Virus record (IMG/VR): IMGVR_UViG_3300017917_000046
Location: 1-32,151 of that record
Origin: a virus
Reading direction: 5' to 3' (one strand)
DNA length: 32,151 nucleotides
The position numbers were made by a program, and so were the translations under genes. Of the stretch, positions 23,506 through 31,520 are shown one piece after another. The notes beneath the pieces are model-generated. The model made no database searches. It was given only the letters and a program-made list of their open reading frames with translations, and was not told the DNA's origin. Numbering within the stretch: position 1 is the first letter of the stretch; the number at the start of each line of letters is the position of its first letter.

Positions 23506-23550
23506 GGGGAGACCATAAGATCTCCCCCTCTATTATTTCCAAAAGGAAAT
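23506..23550 (-). terminator. Tandem hairpins behind the major capsid gene
   Basis: Two perfect stems follow the capsid stop on the minus strand: ATTTCC-TTTT-GGAAAT (23535-23550, touching the stop codon), then GGGGAGA-TCTTATGG-TCTCCCC (23506-23527). The second is followed by TTCAACTATTTT, a broken T run, so it may be a weak terminator, an mRNA-stabilising end, or both. Confidence 0.55.
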
Positions 23551-24536
23551 TATTGTTGCATGTAAGCAACTGCGTCTGTTTCTTCAACTTGAACACCAAA
23601 GCGTAAGAAAGTTGTATATTCTACAGTATCTTTCTTAGGTTGGAATTCACGATGAACAGTAACATCACGTTGGAAGCCCCAAATACGGTTTTCTGGGAAA
23701 GTCAACGAAACGAAACCTGCTGGCATCAAAGGAACTTCTACCAATGGAAGACCAAGAACTCGATATTGAATTGGAGCACCAATTGTTTGTGGTGCTGCAC
23801 CATCAATAACTCTTTCTACGATTCTTTCAGTGTTTAGGTTTCCTGATGAGCCAAGACCGTTGATAATTGCTGCAACTGTTTCTGTATCAGCATAGAACTT
23901 CATTGCTGAGCGAGAAGCACGATATTTACGTGGCATTGCAAGAACTAATGCTTGCAAGTCTTCAATATCTGTACCATAAGTTGCACTGTGACCATCAACT
24001 TCTTTAGCAACAAAACCTTCAAGGATATTTAGGAACGCATTTGTTCCTGATCCTGTTCCGTTAATTGCTAGGTCTTCTAGGTCGTTAGCGAATGCACGAG
24101 TCATTGTACGAACTAAATGATCTTCCAATGCTGAGCCTTCGATGTTGTCTTCTAGTGCTTCTGTAGATACTTCCCAATCTAAGCGAATCTTTTTTGTTGA
24201 GATTTCAACTTTTGTGAAAGTAACTCCAGCGTTTGCGTAAGTTGCATCTGCTTGAGCAGCGGCACGAATTACACGTTCTCCTACGTTCATCTTTTCTAAT
24301 TCTGCAGTGTTGGCACGCATTGTTACACGGCGACCGTCACGAGCAAGAACTTGTTGTTCAAAGATGTATTCGATGAATTGACGAGACTGTTCTGGGTTTA
24401 GGATACCACCTCCATCTACTGGAGCAGCAGTTCCTGCAGGTCCCAATTTATCTGCTGCTGGACTTGATACTGAACCAATTCCACCAGAAACGATTGAGCC
24501 TGTTGAAGCAGCCTTTTCTAAAATTTCTTCTGACAT
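23550..24536 (-). CDS. Major capsid protein (HK97 fold)
   Basis: About 328 residues. The ATG at 24536 (MSEEILEKAASTG) has GGGAGGTG at the proper distance. An open frame from 24647 would overlap the protease gene. Residues about 1-50 form a flexible N-terminal arm. Then come QFIEYIFEQQVLARDGRRVT and ERVIRAAAQADATYANAG, the KIRLDWEVSTEALEDNI spine-helix region, EDHLVRTMTRAFANDLEDLA typical of the HK97 long helix, and the C-terminal FPENRIWGFQRDVTVHREFQ with YTTFLRFGVQV. This is the layout of the capsid families of tailed actinophages. It would build the icosahedral shell with the upstream protease-scaffold. Hairpins and a new promoter follow it, so its expression can exceed that of the neck genes. 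Confidence 0.9.
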   Translation of the reverse strand: MSEEILEKAASTGSIVSGGIGSVSSPAADKLGPAGTAAPVDGGGILNPEQSRQFIEYIFEQQVLARDGRRVTMRANTAELEKMNVGERVIRAAAQADATYANAGVTFTKVEISTKKIRLDWEVSTEALEDNIEGSALEDHLVRTMTRAFANDLEDLAINGTGSGTNAFLNILEGFVAKEVDGHSATYGTDIEDLQALVLAMPRKYRASRSAMKFYADTETVAAIINGLGSSGNLNTERIVERVIDGAAPQTIGAPIQYRVLGLPLVEVPLMPAGFVSLTFPENRIWGFQRDVTVHREFQPKKDTVEYTTFLRFGVQVEETDAVAYMQQ

Positions 24537-24558: not shown

Positions 24559-25182
24559 TTAACGATATAGGTCAGCGGAATTGAGGAAACGCCCGCCCCA
24601 CATCGACCTTTTTTGTATTTTCTTTTCTGCGACCCCGCCGAGATCACCAGACTTACGGAATGCTGTGTCGTTTTCTACTTCATCAACACGCTTTCCAAAC
24701 TCTTCGACATTTGCTTTTACTTCAGTAACTTCCCCTTTTACTGATTCAATGCCTTTTGTAATTTCAGCAACTTTTTCGTTAATTGATTTAACGGCTGCTG
24801 CTAATTCTTCTACTGCTGCTACAACTGATTTGCTAACTTCGTTAACAGAGGCTTGCACTGTTTCTACAGCCTTTGCTAAGTCAACCTTTGCATCTTCTTG
24901 AGCAGGAGTGGCTTCTGTAGTTTCAGATTTTGCAACTTCTTCAGCAACTGGTGCTTCTTCTGCAACTGGTGCTTCTTCGGCTTTTGCTTCTTCTGCAACT
25001 GGTGCATCTTCGGCTTTTGCTTCTTCTGCAACTGGTGCTTCTTCTGCAACTGGTGCTTCTGGACTATCAGACTTTGCGATTTCGTCTGCAACGACAGTCT
25101 CTTTTTGTGCTTCTGCTTCTACAGATTTTTCTACTTTATCTTCAGCAACAACTTGTGTTGCTTCTTCTGTACTTTTTGCCAT
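24559..25182 (-). CDS. Putative free scaffold protein from an internal in-frame start
   Basis: Inside the protease gene an ATG (MAKSTEEATQ, residue 256 of the full frame) is preceded by AAGGAGGT, the best possible Shine-Dalgarno, with six bases spacing. Translation there would yield a 207-residue acidic coiled-coil protein without the protease. Lambda makes its scaffold Nu3 in the same way from inside the protease gene C. The short form would be made in excess over the protease. The region is repetitive and alanine/glutamate-rich, as expected for scaffolds. Seen: the site. Inferred: its use. Confidence 0.65.
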   Translation of the reverse strand: MAKSTEEATQVVAEDKVEKSVEAEAQKETVVADEIAKSDSPEAPVAEEAPVAEEAKAEDAPVAEEAKAEEAPVAEEAPVAEEVAKSETTEATPAQEDAKVDLAKAVETVQASVNEVSKSVVAAVEELAAAVKSINEKVAEITKGIESVKGEVTEVKANVEEFGKRVDEVENDTAFRKSGDLGGVAEKKIQKRSMWGGRFLNSADLYR

Positions 25183-25947
25183 GTTCTTACCTCCTTCATT
25201 GTTTTCATCAGCCTTGGCTGTATTACCAAGCCCTGTATCCTGTGACTTAAGTAAACCTTTAATCACAGAAGTCTTCTCTGAGTCATTTGATTCAACAAAG
25301 CCTATACAAATTTCATCATTAATAGGATCTTCTTCTTTTGAAAGTCTAACTGTTTGATATTCTTTTGACCAATAAACATTTTCAAAAACTGTTTTAGTAA
25401 GCATTCCACCAATAGTGCTATTTCCATCTTTATTTTTTTGAATAGATAAAATATTTGCAAATTGATTTGCTGGATTATCTACTAATGAAAGTTCGTGTAG
25501 GTCATAGTCCTTAATAACCCTAATCTCTTGATCCAACTCGGAGTTGTATGCCTTATCAGCATCTTTGATGCTACCACCAATAGAAAAACCAGTAAGAGTG
25601 CCATCAAGAACTTTTTCCCAAGTATCTTGAGCACCTTTAGAAATATATGCATCTACGTACACTCCATTATAAAACTTATCTTCTTCTTTATTATAAAATT
25701 TATCTGACTTAAATGAGACAACTTTGCCAACTGCAATTGGCATATGCATTTCTCTTAAATTACCACGAAAACGTTCGAAGGCTTTTAAACTCACGTCTGT
25801 AGGAACAATATCTGCTTGTTTATCTACGTTATCGAGCGTGGCAAAGCCTGACACAATTCGGCGTTCTTTGTCTACTTTAGCGATTGGCATAGATAGCGTA
25901 ATGCTATCTTTTTCTGAGTGCCAAAATGCTTTATGCAAATTAGTCAT
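24559..25947 (-). CDS. Prohead protease fused to a scaffold domain
   Basis: This 462-residue protein has two parts. Residues 1-190 are a prohead maturation protease of the S78/U35 type: RIVSGFATLDNVDKQADIV at the start, a conserved histidine in LREMHMPIAVGKVV, the catalytic serine in TGFSIGGSI, and the closing HELSLVDNPANQ. Residues from about 255 are an alanine- and glutamate-rich region with an APVAEE repeat (300-336), then a coiled coil (about 350-430), typical of scaffolding. A single polypeptide would guide capsid assembly and then cut itself and the capsid arm away. A strong internal start gives a likely separate scaffold. A TATAAT box nine bases before the ATG suggests an extremely short mRNA leader. 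Confidence 0.88.
   Translation of the reverse strand: MTNLHKAFWHSEKDSITLSMPIAKVDKERRIVSGFATLDNVDKQADIVPTDVSLKAFERFRGNLREMHMPIAVGKVVSFKSDKFYNKEEDKFYNGVYVDAYISKGAQDTWEKVLDGTLTGFSIGGSIKDADKAYNSELDQEIRVIKDYDLHELSLVDNPANQFANILSIQKNKDGNSTIGGMLTKTVFENVYWSKEYQTVRLSKEEDPINDEICIGFVESNDSEKTSVIKGLLKSQDTGLGNTAKADENNEGGKNMAKSTEEATQVVAEDKVEKSVEAEAQKETVVADEIAKSDSPEAPVAEEAPVAEEAKAEDAPVAEEAKAEEAPVAEEAPVAEEVAKSETTEATPAQEDAKVDLAKAVETVQASVNEVSKSVVAAVEELAAAVKSINEKVAEITKGIESVKGEVTEVKANVEEFGKRVDEVENDTAFRKSGDLGGVAEKKIQKRSMWGGRFLNSADLYR
24938..25050 (-). repeat. Tandem APVAEE-type coding repeat in the scaffold domain
   Basis: Five copies of the hexapeptide APVAEE (codons close to GCACCAGTTGCAGAAGAA) and two AKAE(D/E) units alternate as APVAEE, APVAEE, AKAED, APVAEE, AKAEE, APVAEE, APVAEE. 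The repeat length is 18 bases, so slippage keeps the frame. It lies between protease and coiled coil and likely forms a stiff, acidic, low-complexity tether. Confidence 0.85.
25182..25196 (-). promoter_or_regulatory. Internal Shine-Dalgarno and start codon for the scaffold
   Basis: AAGGAGGT (25189-25196) lies six bases before the in-frame ATG (25180-25182). This full anti-SD match inside a coding region is stronger than the site at the gene's own start (AGGA). Confidence 0.75.
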
Positions 25948-25956
25948 GCTAGTCCT

Positions 25957-25962
25957 ATTATA
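25957..25962 (-). promoter_or_regulatory. -10 element before the protease gene
   Basis: TATAAT on the minus strand in TTATATAATAGG, in the 51-base gap between portal and protease. Nine bases separate it from the ATG at 25947, so the mRNA would have a leader of only two or three bases. No TGn and no -35 are seen. AGGA just before the ATG could serve read-through transcripts. Confidence 0.4.
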
Positions 25963-25998: not shown

Positions 25999-27561
25999 CT
26001 ATTGAGTTGATCTTCCTTCGCCCTGAGCGTTTCTGCCAGAGACTGTTGATGGAGAATCACTTGCGTTATCTGTTCTTTGTTGATCCCTCATTCTATTACC
26101 ACTTGCTTGAGCGGCTTGTTCTGCTCTTGCTTGTGAACCCAGAACGATAGGGTCTTGTCCTCCTGGTCTTACAGGATAGCCAAGTCTTTCACGAACCTCA
26201 TTTGGAACCAGAACTTGCATTCTCAAATATCTTTCATCTATCTGACTTTGAGTTACCTCATCAGTTAGAGTTAGTTCATTTAATTTAAATTGTAGCATAT
26301 CTGTTTTTTCTTTGACCATTTTATTAATAACCTTTTCAAGATTACGTTGTGCTGGTCTTGCTACTTGCTCTTTAAAAGTTCTATCTGATGCTAATGCTGA
26401 AGCAATTGATACTCCTGCACCTCCACCTACCTTAGAGAACGGAACTTGATGGGCCATCAAGATATCGTCACGATTTGATTTGCGATATCTATCAAATGAT
26501 CCTTCTTGAACTCCGTTTTCAATAGCCTTCATATCAAATTCAACTTTGTTATCTGGGCTATCTCCAGGAAGTGGAATATATAATGTTCTGTGGTTTTGTC
26601 CACGAAGACCCGATTGTAAGAATCTAAACAACTTATCTTCAGCATCTACTGATAATTTTGCACCTTTTAGGGAGACAATATATCTTGGAACTGCTTTATT
26701 TTCAAAATAGTCAATATTATATTTACCTGCTAAGTTATCTCCTACCATAGATGTTGCTGCAGATACTGTATCTGGAACTCCATAATATGATGTCTTAGGT
26801 GAATACTTTTTGATATGAATTAATTCATTTGGTCTTGGATCTGTAGTAATAGGGTTAGGATCTTCAGTACCCTGAAAATTTCTAAAGAATACTACTCTTT
26901 GATTTACTATTTGAACATATCCATCACGAAGTCTTCTAACACGAATTGTTGTTGCTGGAATATGGCCTATGTATCCTATTTCTCCGTTAACCTTACGACT
27001 AACTTCAATATAGCCATTTCCTACTGATTCTACGTCTGTATAAACCTTTTCAAGAATGTGAGTAAATGTATCTTCATCGTTTAGACTTTCTAGCCATTCT
27101 GCCATTCCAGCCTTAGATCTTTGAATTTTTCTTTGTGCTCTCATTAATTGATCTTCTGATTCTGCCTCTTCTAATCTAGCCATAGTAGAATCTGTTACTT
27201 CAAATGAATATCCTAATCCAACAATATTTGATACCTTTGCGTTAATTGCAGCATGGTTAGCAAATGAGTTCTCATAGAAATATGCTAGTTCGTCTAGGTT
27301 GTATGGTGGGATAACAACATCATATAATCCGTATGCTGTAGTAAGATCCATTTCTGGAAATAATTGTTTTGAGCCAGTATTGTCTTGACCCATATAAACT
27401 TTGTTTAAACTTCTTGATGCTCTTCTTTTAAAATTAGCATCTAATCCTGCATACCCTTTTGCTACTTCAGCATCAATTAAAAATTCATCTGACTTGATAG
27501 GTCTTTCCATCTTGTCAAGATTATCAATTCTAGCGATAGTTTCTAGTTCTTCATTCTCCAT
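25999..27561 (-). CDS. Portal protein (PBSX/HK97-type)
   Basis: A 520-residue protein that would form the dodecameric DNA gate at one capsid vertex. Visible portal-like text includes YFYENSFANHAAINAKVSNI (wing/clip start), VYTDVESVGNGYIEVSRKVN, ELIHIKKYSPKTSYYGVPD, and the stem/tunnel-loop region LMAHQVPFSKVGGGAGVSIA with ASDRTFKEQVARPAQRNLE. The C-terminal 50 residues (SGNRMRDQQRTDNASDSPS) are a polar, glutamine- and serine-rich tail. Length and order agree with PBSX-type portals. The ATG overlaps the previous gene by 11 bases. A terminase should lie upstream, outside this window or separated by the LamG gene. Confidence 0.9.
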   Translation of the reverse strand: MENEELETIARIDNLDKMERPIKSDEFLIDAEVAKGYAGLDANFKRRASRSLNKVYMGQDNTGSKQLFPEMDLTTAYGLYDVVIPPYNLDELAYFYENSFANHAAINAKVSNIVGLGYSFEVTDSTMARLEEAESEDQLMRAQRKIQRSKAGMAEWLESLNDEDTFTHILEKVYTDVESVGNGYIEVSRKVNGEIGYIGHIPATTIRVRRLRDGYVQIVNQRVVFFRNFQGTEDPNPITTDPRPNELIHIKKYSPKTSYYGVPDTVSAATSMVGDNLAGKYNIDYFENKAVPRYIVSLKGAKLSVDAEDKLFRFLQSGLRGQNHRTLYIPLPGDSPDNKVEFDMKAIENGVQEGSFDRYRKSNRDDILMAHQVPFSKVGGGAGVSIASALASDRTFKEQVARPAQRNLEKVINKMVKEKTDMLQFKLNELTLTDEVTQSQIDERYLRMQVLVPNEVRERLGYPVRPGGQDPIVLGSQARAEQAAQASGNRMRDQQRTDNASDSPSTVSGRNAQGEGRSTQ

Positions 27562-27944: not shown

Positions 27945-30900
27945 CTACACAACCCTTCCTTCATATCTATTCCAATTTACATTAGTTACTATTTTAAATG
28001 AGTCAGAGTTTAAAGATAACGTTGCATCATCTTTCACTGTTGCCTTTGCTAAGCCAAAAAGTGATTGATGAATTTCTTCTCCGTTAACTGTAAAGTATAT
28101 AATTTCTTCAGTTAGCCAAGCATCTCTCCAGTTCATAGTATTCCAGAATGACCAAGGAACGCTTTCTGTTGAATCTTCTGGACCAGGAACATCTATGACT
28201 CTTGTTTGGATATCTGTCCAATCTCTTGCGTTTACAACGTTACCGAATATTGTAGAGGATTCGTTGAAGAAGGCCACGTTATTAAATAGGAATCCTTCAT
28301 ATACTTCAAACTGAGCAGTATGATTATCTAAAATAATATCATTAGAGAAAGATATAACTAAGGATGTCCATGATAATGGCTCTATCACTGGATTATTAAC
28401 TATATATCCATTTTGATAATAAATAATATCAAACTGTTCTATACCAGTTAAGGTATCATATATTTTTACTTTTCCTCTTCTACCCCCAGATTCTGTTTCT
28501 AGGTATATATCTAGTTTCTTATTGCTGCTTACGATCCTTCCAATAAGTGTTCTATTATCTATTGTGTAGTCTTTGTTATACATTAACCAAAATTGAATAC
28601 CTCCAAGTGTGTATTGAGGAGCCTTTTGATTATTGATTGGAATACTTAATCCTCTATCTCCGTCTTGTAAGTACGGAAGAACCTGTATGCCTGAATCTCC
28701 AGTAAGATGAATATATGGGGTTGAGTCTTTATAGATTCTAAAAGGATTTCTGCTTTTAAATATATATGCATCATCTAATTTATGGAATGGATATATTTTG
28801 TTTCCAGTTCTAGTATTGATTGGATGAAAGGCTGATTCGTCATATGCCAAAGATGAATATGATAGACTCTTTAGTTTGATACTCTTATTTAATATTCCAT
28901 CAGTTTTTATTTCAATATGTGTTGTTAGATAGTAGTTTTCAAAATCTACTTCCTCTTTTGGAGGGAATATAATTGTTCCATCTACTACTTCAAATTTAGT
29001 ATTAACAATTTGTCCATATGTATAGTTATCTATTTCTAATACTCTACTTTGTTTAATTGGTTCAACGTTAGTGTAGTCTGTATAAAGTTTTTTACCTACA
29101 GAGGCATAGTCTTGTATAGTTACATATGATGTAACTTTTAATGCTGTATCTTCAGTTTGTGACAATGTTCCTTCTGTTATAAGTGGTGATGAATTATCTA
29201 TATTAAACTGAATCATGTCTAGATCGTATATATCATTGCCATTTACATCTTTAACAAATTTAGCAAAGTATGTTAAAGGTAGAGAATCTTCCCAGTATCC
29301 AGCACATCCAATATCTGGAATTAATGACTCTTCTGTCTTTACAACATGATAGGTATAGTTTCCAACATACTTCATTAAGTAAGTATCTACATCTTTATCA
29401 AAAACTCCATTATCTTGAATATATCCTAATAAGTCTTTATTTGTATATAGTCTATTATTAAATGTTGTGCTATATATTCTTCCAGAGAAAGTATTATCTG
29501 CATACCCTCCAATATTTAAAGATATATTCTGAGGGCTAGAGAAAAAGTTTTGTAAAACAGCAGCATAGTTAGCATTTATTCTGTCAACCTCTATTCCAGC
29601 AACAAAGTCTGTACTTGCACTAAGGGCTATTGGAGAATTTAATATTGATAGGTCATTGTATAAATAGTCTAGTCCATTTTCATCTACTACTATCTTAAAA
29701 TTATTTGAATTAATCTTGCTTGTAAACTGCATTAAAATTTCTTGTGTTGATGTTAAAACATCTGGTGATCTAAATACTCCAAATATACTTTTTACTGGAG
29801 AGTTAATTGGATTCATTGATTCGTAATATATAGATCCATAAACATTTTCATATACTTCATTTGGTTTTAGTTTAATAAATGCATAGTCTCCATCTTGAAG
29901 AACTAGGCTATCATAAAATGTATCTGCGGCAGACTTAATTTTCATGTACTGCCAGTCATTATTTTTCCAGTACTCCCAAGTTCTTTCATTGACATTTGAC
30001 CAAGTTCTATATTCTACTGATAAATTAAATATTGATAGATCTGCTCCTATATAAATTATTTCAGGAAGTGTGTATTCTGGAAAAGATAAATATTTTGAAG
30101 TTGCATTTATATTATTAAAATATCCAGCGTTCCAACCTGTCATATTTGGATAGTTTATTGTTGAAGAGTAGTTTGCAAAAGGAAAATCTATATATACTGA
30201 TTCTCCAGAAAAATTGTTAATAACATTTTCTACATTTCCTACACCTTGACCATAAACATATTTTTTCTTTGCTAATTGAGAGGATATTAAATATGGATAA
30301 ATACCAAAACAATCTATTTCAAATGGGTATACATCTTCATTTCCATAAAATCCTAACCAGTCTTCTCTAGGAAAAGGAAGTGATATAAATTCTTGTTCTA
30401 TTTCTATAGTTATAACTGTTTCACCATTAATTAATAAACTAATATTATCTGGTGTATATCTTATATGTATTAACATTGGTCTAAACCATTTACCTACAAA
30501 GTGAGACTTTGAATATCTTCCAATTCTCAATGTCATAAATTCTTCTTCTATGTATAATCCATCATTTGATGTTATTGGTCCAAATATTTTTATTGGTGTG
30601 GCTGAATCTGTATATACTCTTAGCCAGAACTCAGCAGTAACCTGTTTATTTTCTCCTAACTTATTTAAAAATCCTTGTCCTGGAAATATAATTGATGGCA
30701 TACCTTGTGTAATTGGTTTATGTATTTTTGTAACATTGCTTGATCCAAATGTCATAGGTAAGCCATAGTTAACTGCTAACATCTTATTATTGTCTACCAC
30801 GTAATATGCGTCTTTATTTTCTAACAACCCATAAGGGTCTGCATTAACAACTTTAATACCTAATGGTGGAGAGGTAGGAAGTAGTGAATTAAGAACTGCA

Positions 30901-31520
30901 TCTGTTAAGTTTTGTGGAATTACTCCAGTACTATCCGAAAAAAATACTTCTGACCATTGTCCTATTGATAATGAATTTATTTGTAGAGCATAATCATTAT
31001 TTATAACAGAGCCTGTGTAGTTTACTTTTATATATCCTCTAAATTCATCATTATATTTTGTATCTATTGTATGAGTTAACCTAGTCCATTCTTTTTGATT
31101 CATTGTAAATTCTTGAGTGTCATAAGTATATGCTACATCTTCTGTATCTTTATATTTAAATCCTATCTCAATGCTATCTATTGCTGATTCAAATGCATAA
31201 GCATGTGCTGATATTGTAACAGTAGACTTTTCTGGATCCTCTAGTAAGGTCATTTCCATATTTGGGCTTGTAAAGTCCATATAAGACATAGAGCCAGATA
31301 TTGGAATTATTATTGATGATATTTCATCTGGTAGTGGAACATTTTTTGCACTAGATACGGAGGCAGATTCGTGACCGTTTACAGATTCCCAATAGAGTAT
31401 ATCTTTATGGTTTGAGTCTAGAAGTGAAATAAATGATAGTTCATCATCTAGTGGCCATAGTGCTAGCGGGTGTTCTGCAAATGCACGAGAAGCAAATATA
31501 TTAGAGACTTTATGCGACAT
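27945..31520 (-). CDS. Large LamG-like virion or adhesion protein
   Basis: A 1191-residue, beta-rich protein with no signal peptide. Its start (FAEHPLALWPLDDELSFISL) has the ALWPLDD phrase that opens many LamG/concanavalin-A-like phage domains. Further LamG-like segments appear at about residues 297-405 (TAEFWLRVYTDSATPIKIFG, DNISLLINGETVI, EIDCFGIYPYLIS), 575-685 (SIFGVFRSPDVLT, SGRIYSTTFNNRLY) and 970-1095 (GGIQFWLMYNKDYTIDNRTL, WTSLVISFSND). Such folds bind glycans, so it may be a surface decoration, fibre or receptor-binding protein. It lies upstream of the portal, away from the tail module. It has its own promoter and a very short leader (AGAGG). Confidence 0.7.
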   Translation of the reverse strand: MSHKVSNIFASRAFAEHPLALWPLDDELSFISLLDSNHKDILYWESVNGHESASVSSAKNVPLPDEISSIIIPISGSMSYMDFTSPNMEMTLLEDPEKSTVTISAHAYAFESAIDSIEIGFKYKDTEDVAYTYDTQEFTMNQKEWTRLTHTIDTKYNDEFRGYIKVNYTGSVINNDYALQINSLSIGQWSEVFFSDSTGVIPQNLTDAVLNSLLPTSPPLGIKVVNADPYGLLENKDAYYVVDNNKMLAVNYGLPMTFGSSNVTKIHKPITQGMPSIIFPGQGFLNKLGENKQVTAEFWLRVYTDSATPIKIFGPITSNDGLYIEEEFMTLRIGRYSKSHFVGKWFRPMLIHIRYTPDNISLLINGETVITIEIEQEFISLPFPREDWLGFYGNEDVYPFEIDCFGIYPYLISSQLAKKKYVYGQGVGNVENVINNFSGESVYIDFPFANYSSTINYPNMTGWNAGYFNNINATSKYLSFPEYTLPEIIYIGADLSIFNLSVEYRTWSNVNERTWEYWKNNDWQYMKIKSAADTFYDSLVLQDGDYAFIKLKPNEVYENVYGSIYYESMNPINSPVKSIFGVFRSPDVLTSTQEILMQFTSKINSNNFKIVVDENGLDYLYNDLSILNSPIALSASTDFVAGIEVDRINANYAAVLQNFFSSPQNISLNIGGYADNTFSGRIYSTTFNNRLYTNKDLLGYIQDNGVFDKDVDTYLMKYVGNYTYHVVKTEESLIPDIGCAGYWEDSLPLTYFAKFVKDVNGNDIYDLDMIQFNIDNSSPLITEGTLSQTEDTALKVTSYVTIQDYASVGKKLYTDYTNVEPIKQSRVLEIDNYTYGQIVNTKFEVVDGTIIFPPKEEVDFENYYLTTHIEIKTDGILNKSIKLKSLSYSSLAYDESAFHPINTRTGNKIYPFHKLDDAYIFKSRNPFRIYKDSTPYIHLTGDSGIQVLPYLQDGDRGLSIPINNQKAPQYTLGGIQFWLMYNKDYTIDNRTLIGRIVSSNKKLDIYLETESGGRRGKVKIYDTLTGIEQFDIIYYQNGYIVNNPVIEPLSWTSLVISFSNDIILDNHTAQFEVYEGFLFNNVAFFNESSTIFGNVVNARDWTDIQTRVIDVPGPEDSTESVPWSFWNTMNWRDAWLTEEIIYFTVNGEEIHQSLFGLAKATVKDDATLSLNSDSFKIVTNVNWNRYEGRVV

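Follow-up and report, generated by a model that had tools for sequence, protein, structure and literature searches.

Nested genes in which a protease and a scaffold share one reading frame are already known from phages lambda and Mu. In lambda, translation of the scaffold Nu3 begins inside the protease gene C, within its 3′ part and in the same frame (Shaw and Murialdo 1980, as cited in PMC8508860), so that the two proteins have the same C terminus, and the pair is encoded in the head operon ahead of the capsid gene. Genes I and Z of Mu have the same arrangement, with an in-frame internal scaffold start, and Z is annotated with a 'start site internal to gene I'; for the Pseudomonas Mu-like phage PaMx73, Val177 has been proposed as a start with a Shine-Dalgarno (SD) sequence (PMC4378225). 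HK97 has no separate scaffold and carries instead a 102-residue domain on its capsid protein (PMC8508860). Here, the nested design is encountered with a protease of the S78 type, where it is unannotated.

The locus lies in a virus record of 32,151 bases, analysed over its whole length (the window). A gene for a 462-residue protein of 50.5 kDa (24559–25947) is flanked by the portal gene (25999–27561), from which it is separated by an intergenic gap of 51 nt, and by the gene for the major capsid protein (23550–24536; 328 aa, Pfam Phage_capsid at residues 42–327); the 462-residue and capsid genes, with all of their elements given below, are on the minus strand. The 462-aa ORF matches the head maturation protease family phrog_9427 over residues 3–459 (E = 2e-113) and Pfam Peptidase_S78 (PF04586) with 27.3 bits against a cut-off of 21, and in relatives the gene is annotated as one CDS, either 'capsid maturation protease' or 'head maturation protease'. 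Near the portal gene there is also an ORF of 1191 aa (27945–31520) without a Pfam or PHROG match.

Inside the protease gene, the SD sequence AAGGAGGT (25189–25196) is followed, after the 6-nt spacer AAGAAC (25188–25183), by an in-frame ATG (25180–25182) at codon 256 of 462. Initiation at this codon would open a nested ORF (24559–25182) of 207 aa, 21.9 kDa and pI 4.4 that begins MAKSTEEATQ and ends at the same TAA (24561–24559) as the long ORF. A preceding sequence-only reading of this DNA had reported a perfect SD with six-base spacing, an in-frame ATG at 25182 and a 207-residue product, and it was correct in all coordinates, in the frame and in the length. Residues 1–255 (25183–25947) constitute the protease part, in which His68 and Ser122 are invariant in the alignments of relatives and are likely to be the catalytic residues. 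In the model of the protease domain (pLDDT 72) the fold, together with a short helix, extends to about residue 238; a Foldseek search with this model gave BFVD matches down to 4e-30, including predicted prohead proteases, and no match in the PDB at E ≤ 0.001. Further downstream there are low-complexity Ala/Pro/Val/Glu repeats of variable length among relatives (about residues 297–340, 24928–25059), a long, coiled-coil-like helix predicted by AlphaFold2 (residues 349–428, 24664–24903; pLDDT mostly about 55–77), and a C-terminal tail, RKSGDLGG...MWGGRFLNSADLYR (24562–24657), which is conserved in the alignments. AlphaFold applied to the full protein gave a pLDDT of 44, and that model was used for secondary structure only. 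The internal start is accordingly located at the border between protease and tail, as the same reading had held. Most relatives, those in Streptomyces and Rhodococcus phages included, have a zinc-ribbon-like C...CxxC stretch at protease residues 183–233 (window 25250–25400), the cysteines of which are lost in the close group of the window.

Ribosome-binding sites (RBSs) were scored as duplex energy with a generic anti-SD, which may not be that of the host. At −13.8 kcal/mol, the internal site is the second strongest in the window, behind that of the capsid gene, whose SD GGGAGGTG (24550–24543) reaches −14.5 kcal/mol, and the protease's own start scores −3.9. In-frame internal starts at −11 kcal/mol or below number two among the 23 main ORFs of the window, the other being a TTG at −11.1 in a 1437-aa ORF; in a comparison of 37 loci, such a start was present in 37 of 37 protease genes and in just 2 of the 180 other ORFs, each time as a TTG. 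Shuffling of synonymous codons in single genes produced an equally good site in 0–12.5% of the shuffles (window, 6%), a result that the encoded peptide itself permits. The single-gene shuffle is thus only suggestive, and it is therefore the comparison across relatives that decides. Synonymous-site conservation in 5-codon windows was also examined and set aside: the SD codons rank from 20/429 to 374/461, which is not extreme, and the test is indecisive because close relatives are too similar.

Several hundred relatives were assembled from viral contigs, phage records and genome contigs, and tblastn located relatives of the protease gene in 127 Streptomyces and 9 Rhodococcus phage records. The scored set comprises 255 loci in which the gene can be read through the junction, i.e., 209 distinct proteins, and the internal site is present in all of them. 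The earlier reading had named, as the finding that would speak against it, any relative that has the fusion and lacks the internal SD/ATG; such relatives were sought among these 255 loci, and no refuting case emerged. Even the weakest site (−8.2, in L166) keeps AAGGAG and ATG, and the sole locus without a site, L079, lies outside the 255 and has lost the whole junction through a frameshifting deletion. One peptide pattern of the first search spans the internal site, and the patterns of the later sets do not touch it; since the site is also found in the sets fetched by non-overlapping patterns, its conservation is not a product of retrieval. The Stanwilliamsviridae phages of Streptomyces and the Rhodococcus phages Trina and Peregrin, with 34–43% identity to the window, have internal sites of −12.5 to −16.3, compared with about +1 to −3 at the start of the protease itself. 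As in the window, the two strong RBSs of the relatives are those of scaffold and capsid, and the protease start is weak. Distant S78 proteases from Chloroflexi, Ktedonobacterales and others (L203–L210) are GC-rich and give mixed internal-site scores.

Some relatives depart from the common gene structure. In one subgroup (L050–L057, L059–L066, L071–L077 and others), an insertion of about 105 residues, with a Hva1_TUDOR domain in it, directly precedes the internal site, and both site and tail are intact. L161 (3001–4254) has an in-frame TAA between the protease and scaffold parts and retains the internal SD and a GTG; the stop may reflect a sequencing error or a genuine division of the gene, and a split fixed in this lineage was not supported, as L161 alone among the 80 loci returned has a stop before the site. 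Frameshifts or a stop inside the gene (repeats, junction, protease domain) are also seen in L075, L079 and L109, probably through errors of sequencing or assembly; in L075 and L109 the internal site is present all the same.

The locus counts are not independent, owing to kinship, and changes were therefore counted on a tree. Of the 209 distinct relatives, 109 have ATG as their internal start codon and the remaining 100 have GTG, and in the genes with GTG only 166 of 3742 valines elsewhere (4%) are encoded by GTG. The tree of the protease domain requires at least eight ATG/GTG changes at the internal start, each of which swaps Met and Val in the long protein and exchanges one start codon for another, and at least four changes in the codon phase of the SD. 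In the window's own subclade the SD is in phase 0 and is read as (E/K)GG, and this subclade is nested in a phase-2 clade reading KEG/KEV; the peptides spanning the SD vary (EGG, KGG, KEG, KEV, KEE) and AAGGAGG persists. Because the SD has changed its codon phase at least four times, it is the DNA that has been kept and not the peptide.

The protease's own start is preceded by an element of another kind, a promoter-like sequence that the sequence-only reading had not reported. In the window, a −10 element TATAAT (25957–25962) is located 9 nt before the protease ATG, within the 51-nt gap, and in nearly all relatives a −10 box is found 6–9 nt before the protease start (beginning 12–16 nt before it). 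At least five of six positions match TATAAT in 116 of 130 distinct upstream sequences (shuffles 27.2, largest 40), and the exact hexamer occurs in 77 of the 130 (shuffles 3.7, largest 10); these shuffles keep base composition only, and the upstream sequences are related rather than independent. In most loci the element is intergenic, being carried by 165 of the 171 loci with a gap of at least 20 nt, and several members have a matching −35, e.g., TTGCCT-N17-TATAAT-N7-ATG in L220, L242 and L285, and TTGGCT-N17-TATTAT-N6-ATG at the protease start of Moab. In the same scan, −10 elements were no more frequent at the scaffold start than in shuffles (5 of 105 versus 5.1), and the capsid start likewise showed no excess. 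A TA-like signal about 10–12 bp before the start marks leaderless genes, which are frequent in Actinobacteria (PMC3160421), and the protease start conforms to this pattern (TANNNT about 10–12 bp before the start in place of an SD). With a −10 box before the protease start and none before the scaffold, the protease is probably translated from a leaderless or nearly leaderless start, and scaffold and capsid probably from SDs on the same mRNA. In the window, the box begins 15 nt upstream of the start codon and a weak AGGA also occurs, and the expected leader would be only a few bases long ('nearly leaderless'). At 1465–1480 of the window, TATAAT is also found six bases before the ATG of a 104-aa ORF (1151–1465), a second candidate leaderless gene.

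This element bears on the relative amounts of the two products. The sequence-only reading had ranked the internal site above the gene's own start, which holds (−13.8 versus −3.9), and had concluded that free scaffold would outnumber protease, which is likely rather than established: leaderless translation can match leadered translation in robustness in mycobacteria (PMC4633059), and if the protease is probably leaderless, SD strength is the wrong yardstick for the scaffold-to-protease ratio. That the ratio in this family is set by two initiation modes on one mRNA, (nearly) leaderless for the protease and strong-SD for scaffold and capsid, is a proposal to which we give even chances; an excess of scaffold over protease is itself likely.

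Taken together, the data make it highly probable that this one gene encodes two products in the same frame, a protease-scaffold fusion and a free scaffold from the internal start. A single mRNA would begin at or a few bases from the protease start codon; on it, the protease would be initiated without a leader or nearly so, and scaffold and capsid by their strong SDs. Full-length translation would yield the 462-aa fusion, and a second initiation at the internal SD/ATG would yield the 207-aa scaffold, i.e., the C-terminal part only. Free scaffold and capsid protein would build the prohead together, and fewer fusion molecules would bring the protease inside through the shared tail, which would recruit it to the growing prohead. 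Digestion of the scaffold by the protease would then make room inside for the DNA.

SD-like sequences within ORFs have been reported to slow ribosomes, and the position of the internal site at a domain border would suit a pause that helps the protease to fold, with no second product. Pausing needs no start codon, however, yet the site is set at initiation spacing before ATG or GTG in 209 of 209 distinct relatives, GTG is the sole valine codon used there, and the two start codons have been swapped at least eight times, all of which leaves a pure pause very improbable. We consider it equally improbable that there is a single product as in P2 gpO, where protease and scaffold are parts of one gene (PMC8508860), with a fusion that acts as scaffold and cuts itself, and an SD that is a by-product of a conserved peptide. 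That as many as 12.5% of the synonymous shuffles of a gene can retain a comparable site fits that account, but the peptide is not conserved (phase 0 versus phase 2; EGG, KEG, KEV or KEE), and P2 O itself, a single fusion, has no strong internal site by the same scoring, nor has HK97 gp4. Transcripts nested within a longer gene are known for the scaffold of herpesviruses, and a short product could likewise come from its own transcript and a promoter inside the protease gene; the absence of a −10 excess before the scaffold start, when 116 of 130 upstream sequences have the element ahead of the protease, makes this unlikely, if slightly less so than the pause or the single product.

Of these accounts, that of two products from an internal translation start is preferred, which leaves the question of what the shorter one does. 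It could be something other than a scaffold, e.g., an internal head protein or a protease regulator, as its function is assigned from place, composition and predicted helix, and a PDB sequence-profile search retrieved generic coiled coils only and no solved scaffold homologue. This is the least improbable of the alternatives, and still an unlikely one. The capsid protein has about 41 residues ahead of its capsid domain, too few for an HK97-like scaffold domain, and hence has no room for a built-in scaffold; in the annotated relatives examined, no other gene from portal to capsid is labelled as a scaffold. We therefore infer with good confidence that the acidic, coiled-coil-like product, which shares its conserved tail with the fusion and is encoded directly ahead of the capsid gene, is the scaffold, in support of the sequence-only reading, to which it had also looked like one. 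The C-terminal tail common to both products is proposed to be the capsid-binding end.

The annotated records examined list a single protease and in no case a nested start or scaffold, and a literature search, whose scope excluded most subscription journals, returned no description of a nested scaffold in these actinophages. The nested start supplies a candidate scaffold for these Streptomyces and Rhodococcus phages, and a silent GTG to GTT change in cultivable laboratory phages would allow the scaffold-to-protease ratio to be tested. It also serves as a warning that in-frame nested genes are missed by gene callers, and the recurrence of the lambda and Mu design with another class of protease bears on how frequently a single gene unites scaffold and protease.

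The likeness to lambda C/Nu3 claimed in the sequence-only reading applies to the design and not to homology: lambda C is annotated as S49, and a Pfam scan of the 462-aa ORF returned S78 and XkdF profiles and no S49, so that the relation is one of analogy only. In lambda, the strengths are the reverse of those in the window, with an SD of −2.7 at the annotated Nu3 start and of −12.2 at C's own, which implies that a strong SD is not required for a nested design; unlike in the window, gene D is placed between C/Nu3 and the capsid gene E. By our scoring, the best internal start of lambda C, with −10.8, is an ATG at codon 309 (L293:1343; NC_001416 base 5342) rather than the one annotated for Nu3. 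The internal site of Mu Z, at −7.4, is weaker than that of the window, and the Mu genes are other than those of the window. HK97 has the same class of protease, S78 by Pfam. The Stanwilliamsviridae, Trina and Peregrin genes are true homologues with the same internal start, and differ in that many have the CxxC zinc-ribbon-like stretch lost in the window. In the family of the window the lambda and Mu design is found with another protease class, the internal site is stronger and its conservation deep, and a promoter-like element precedes the protease.
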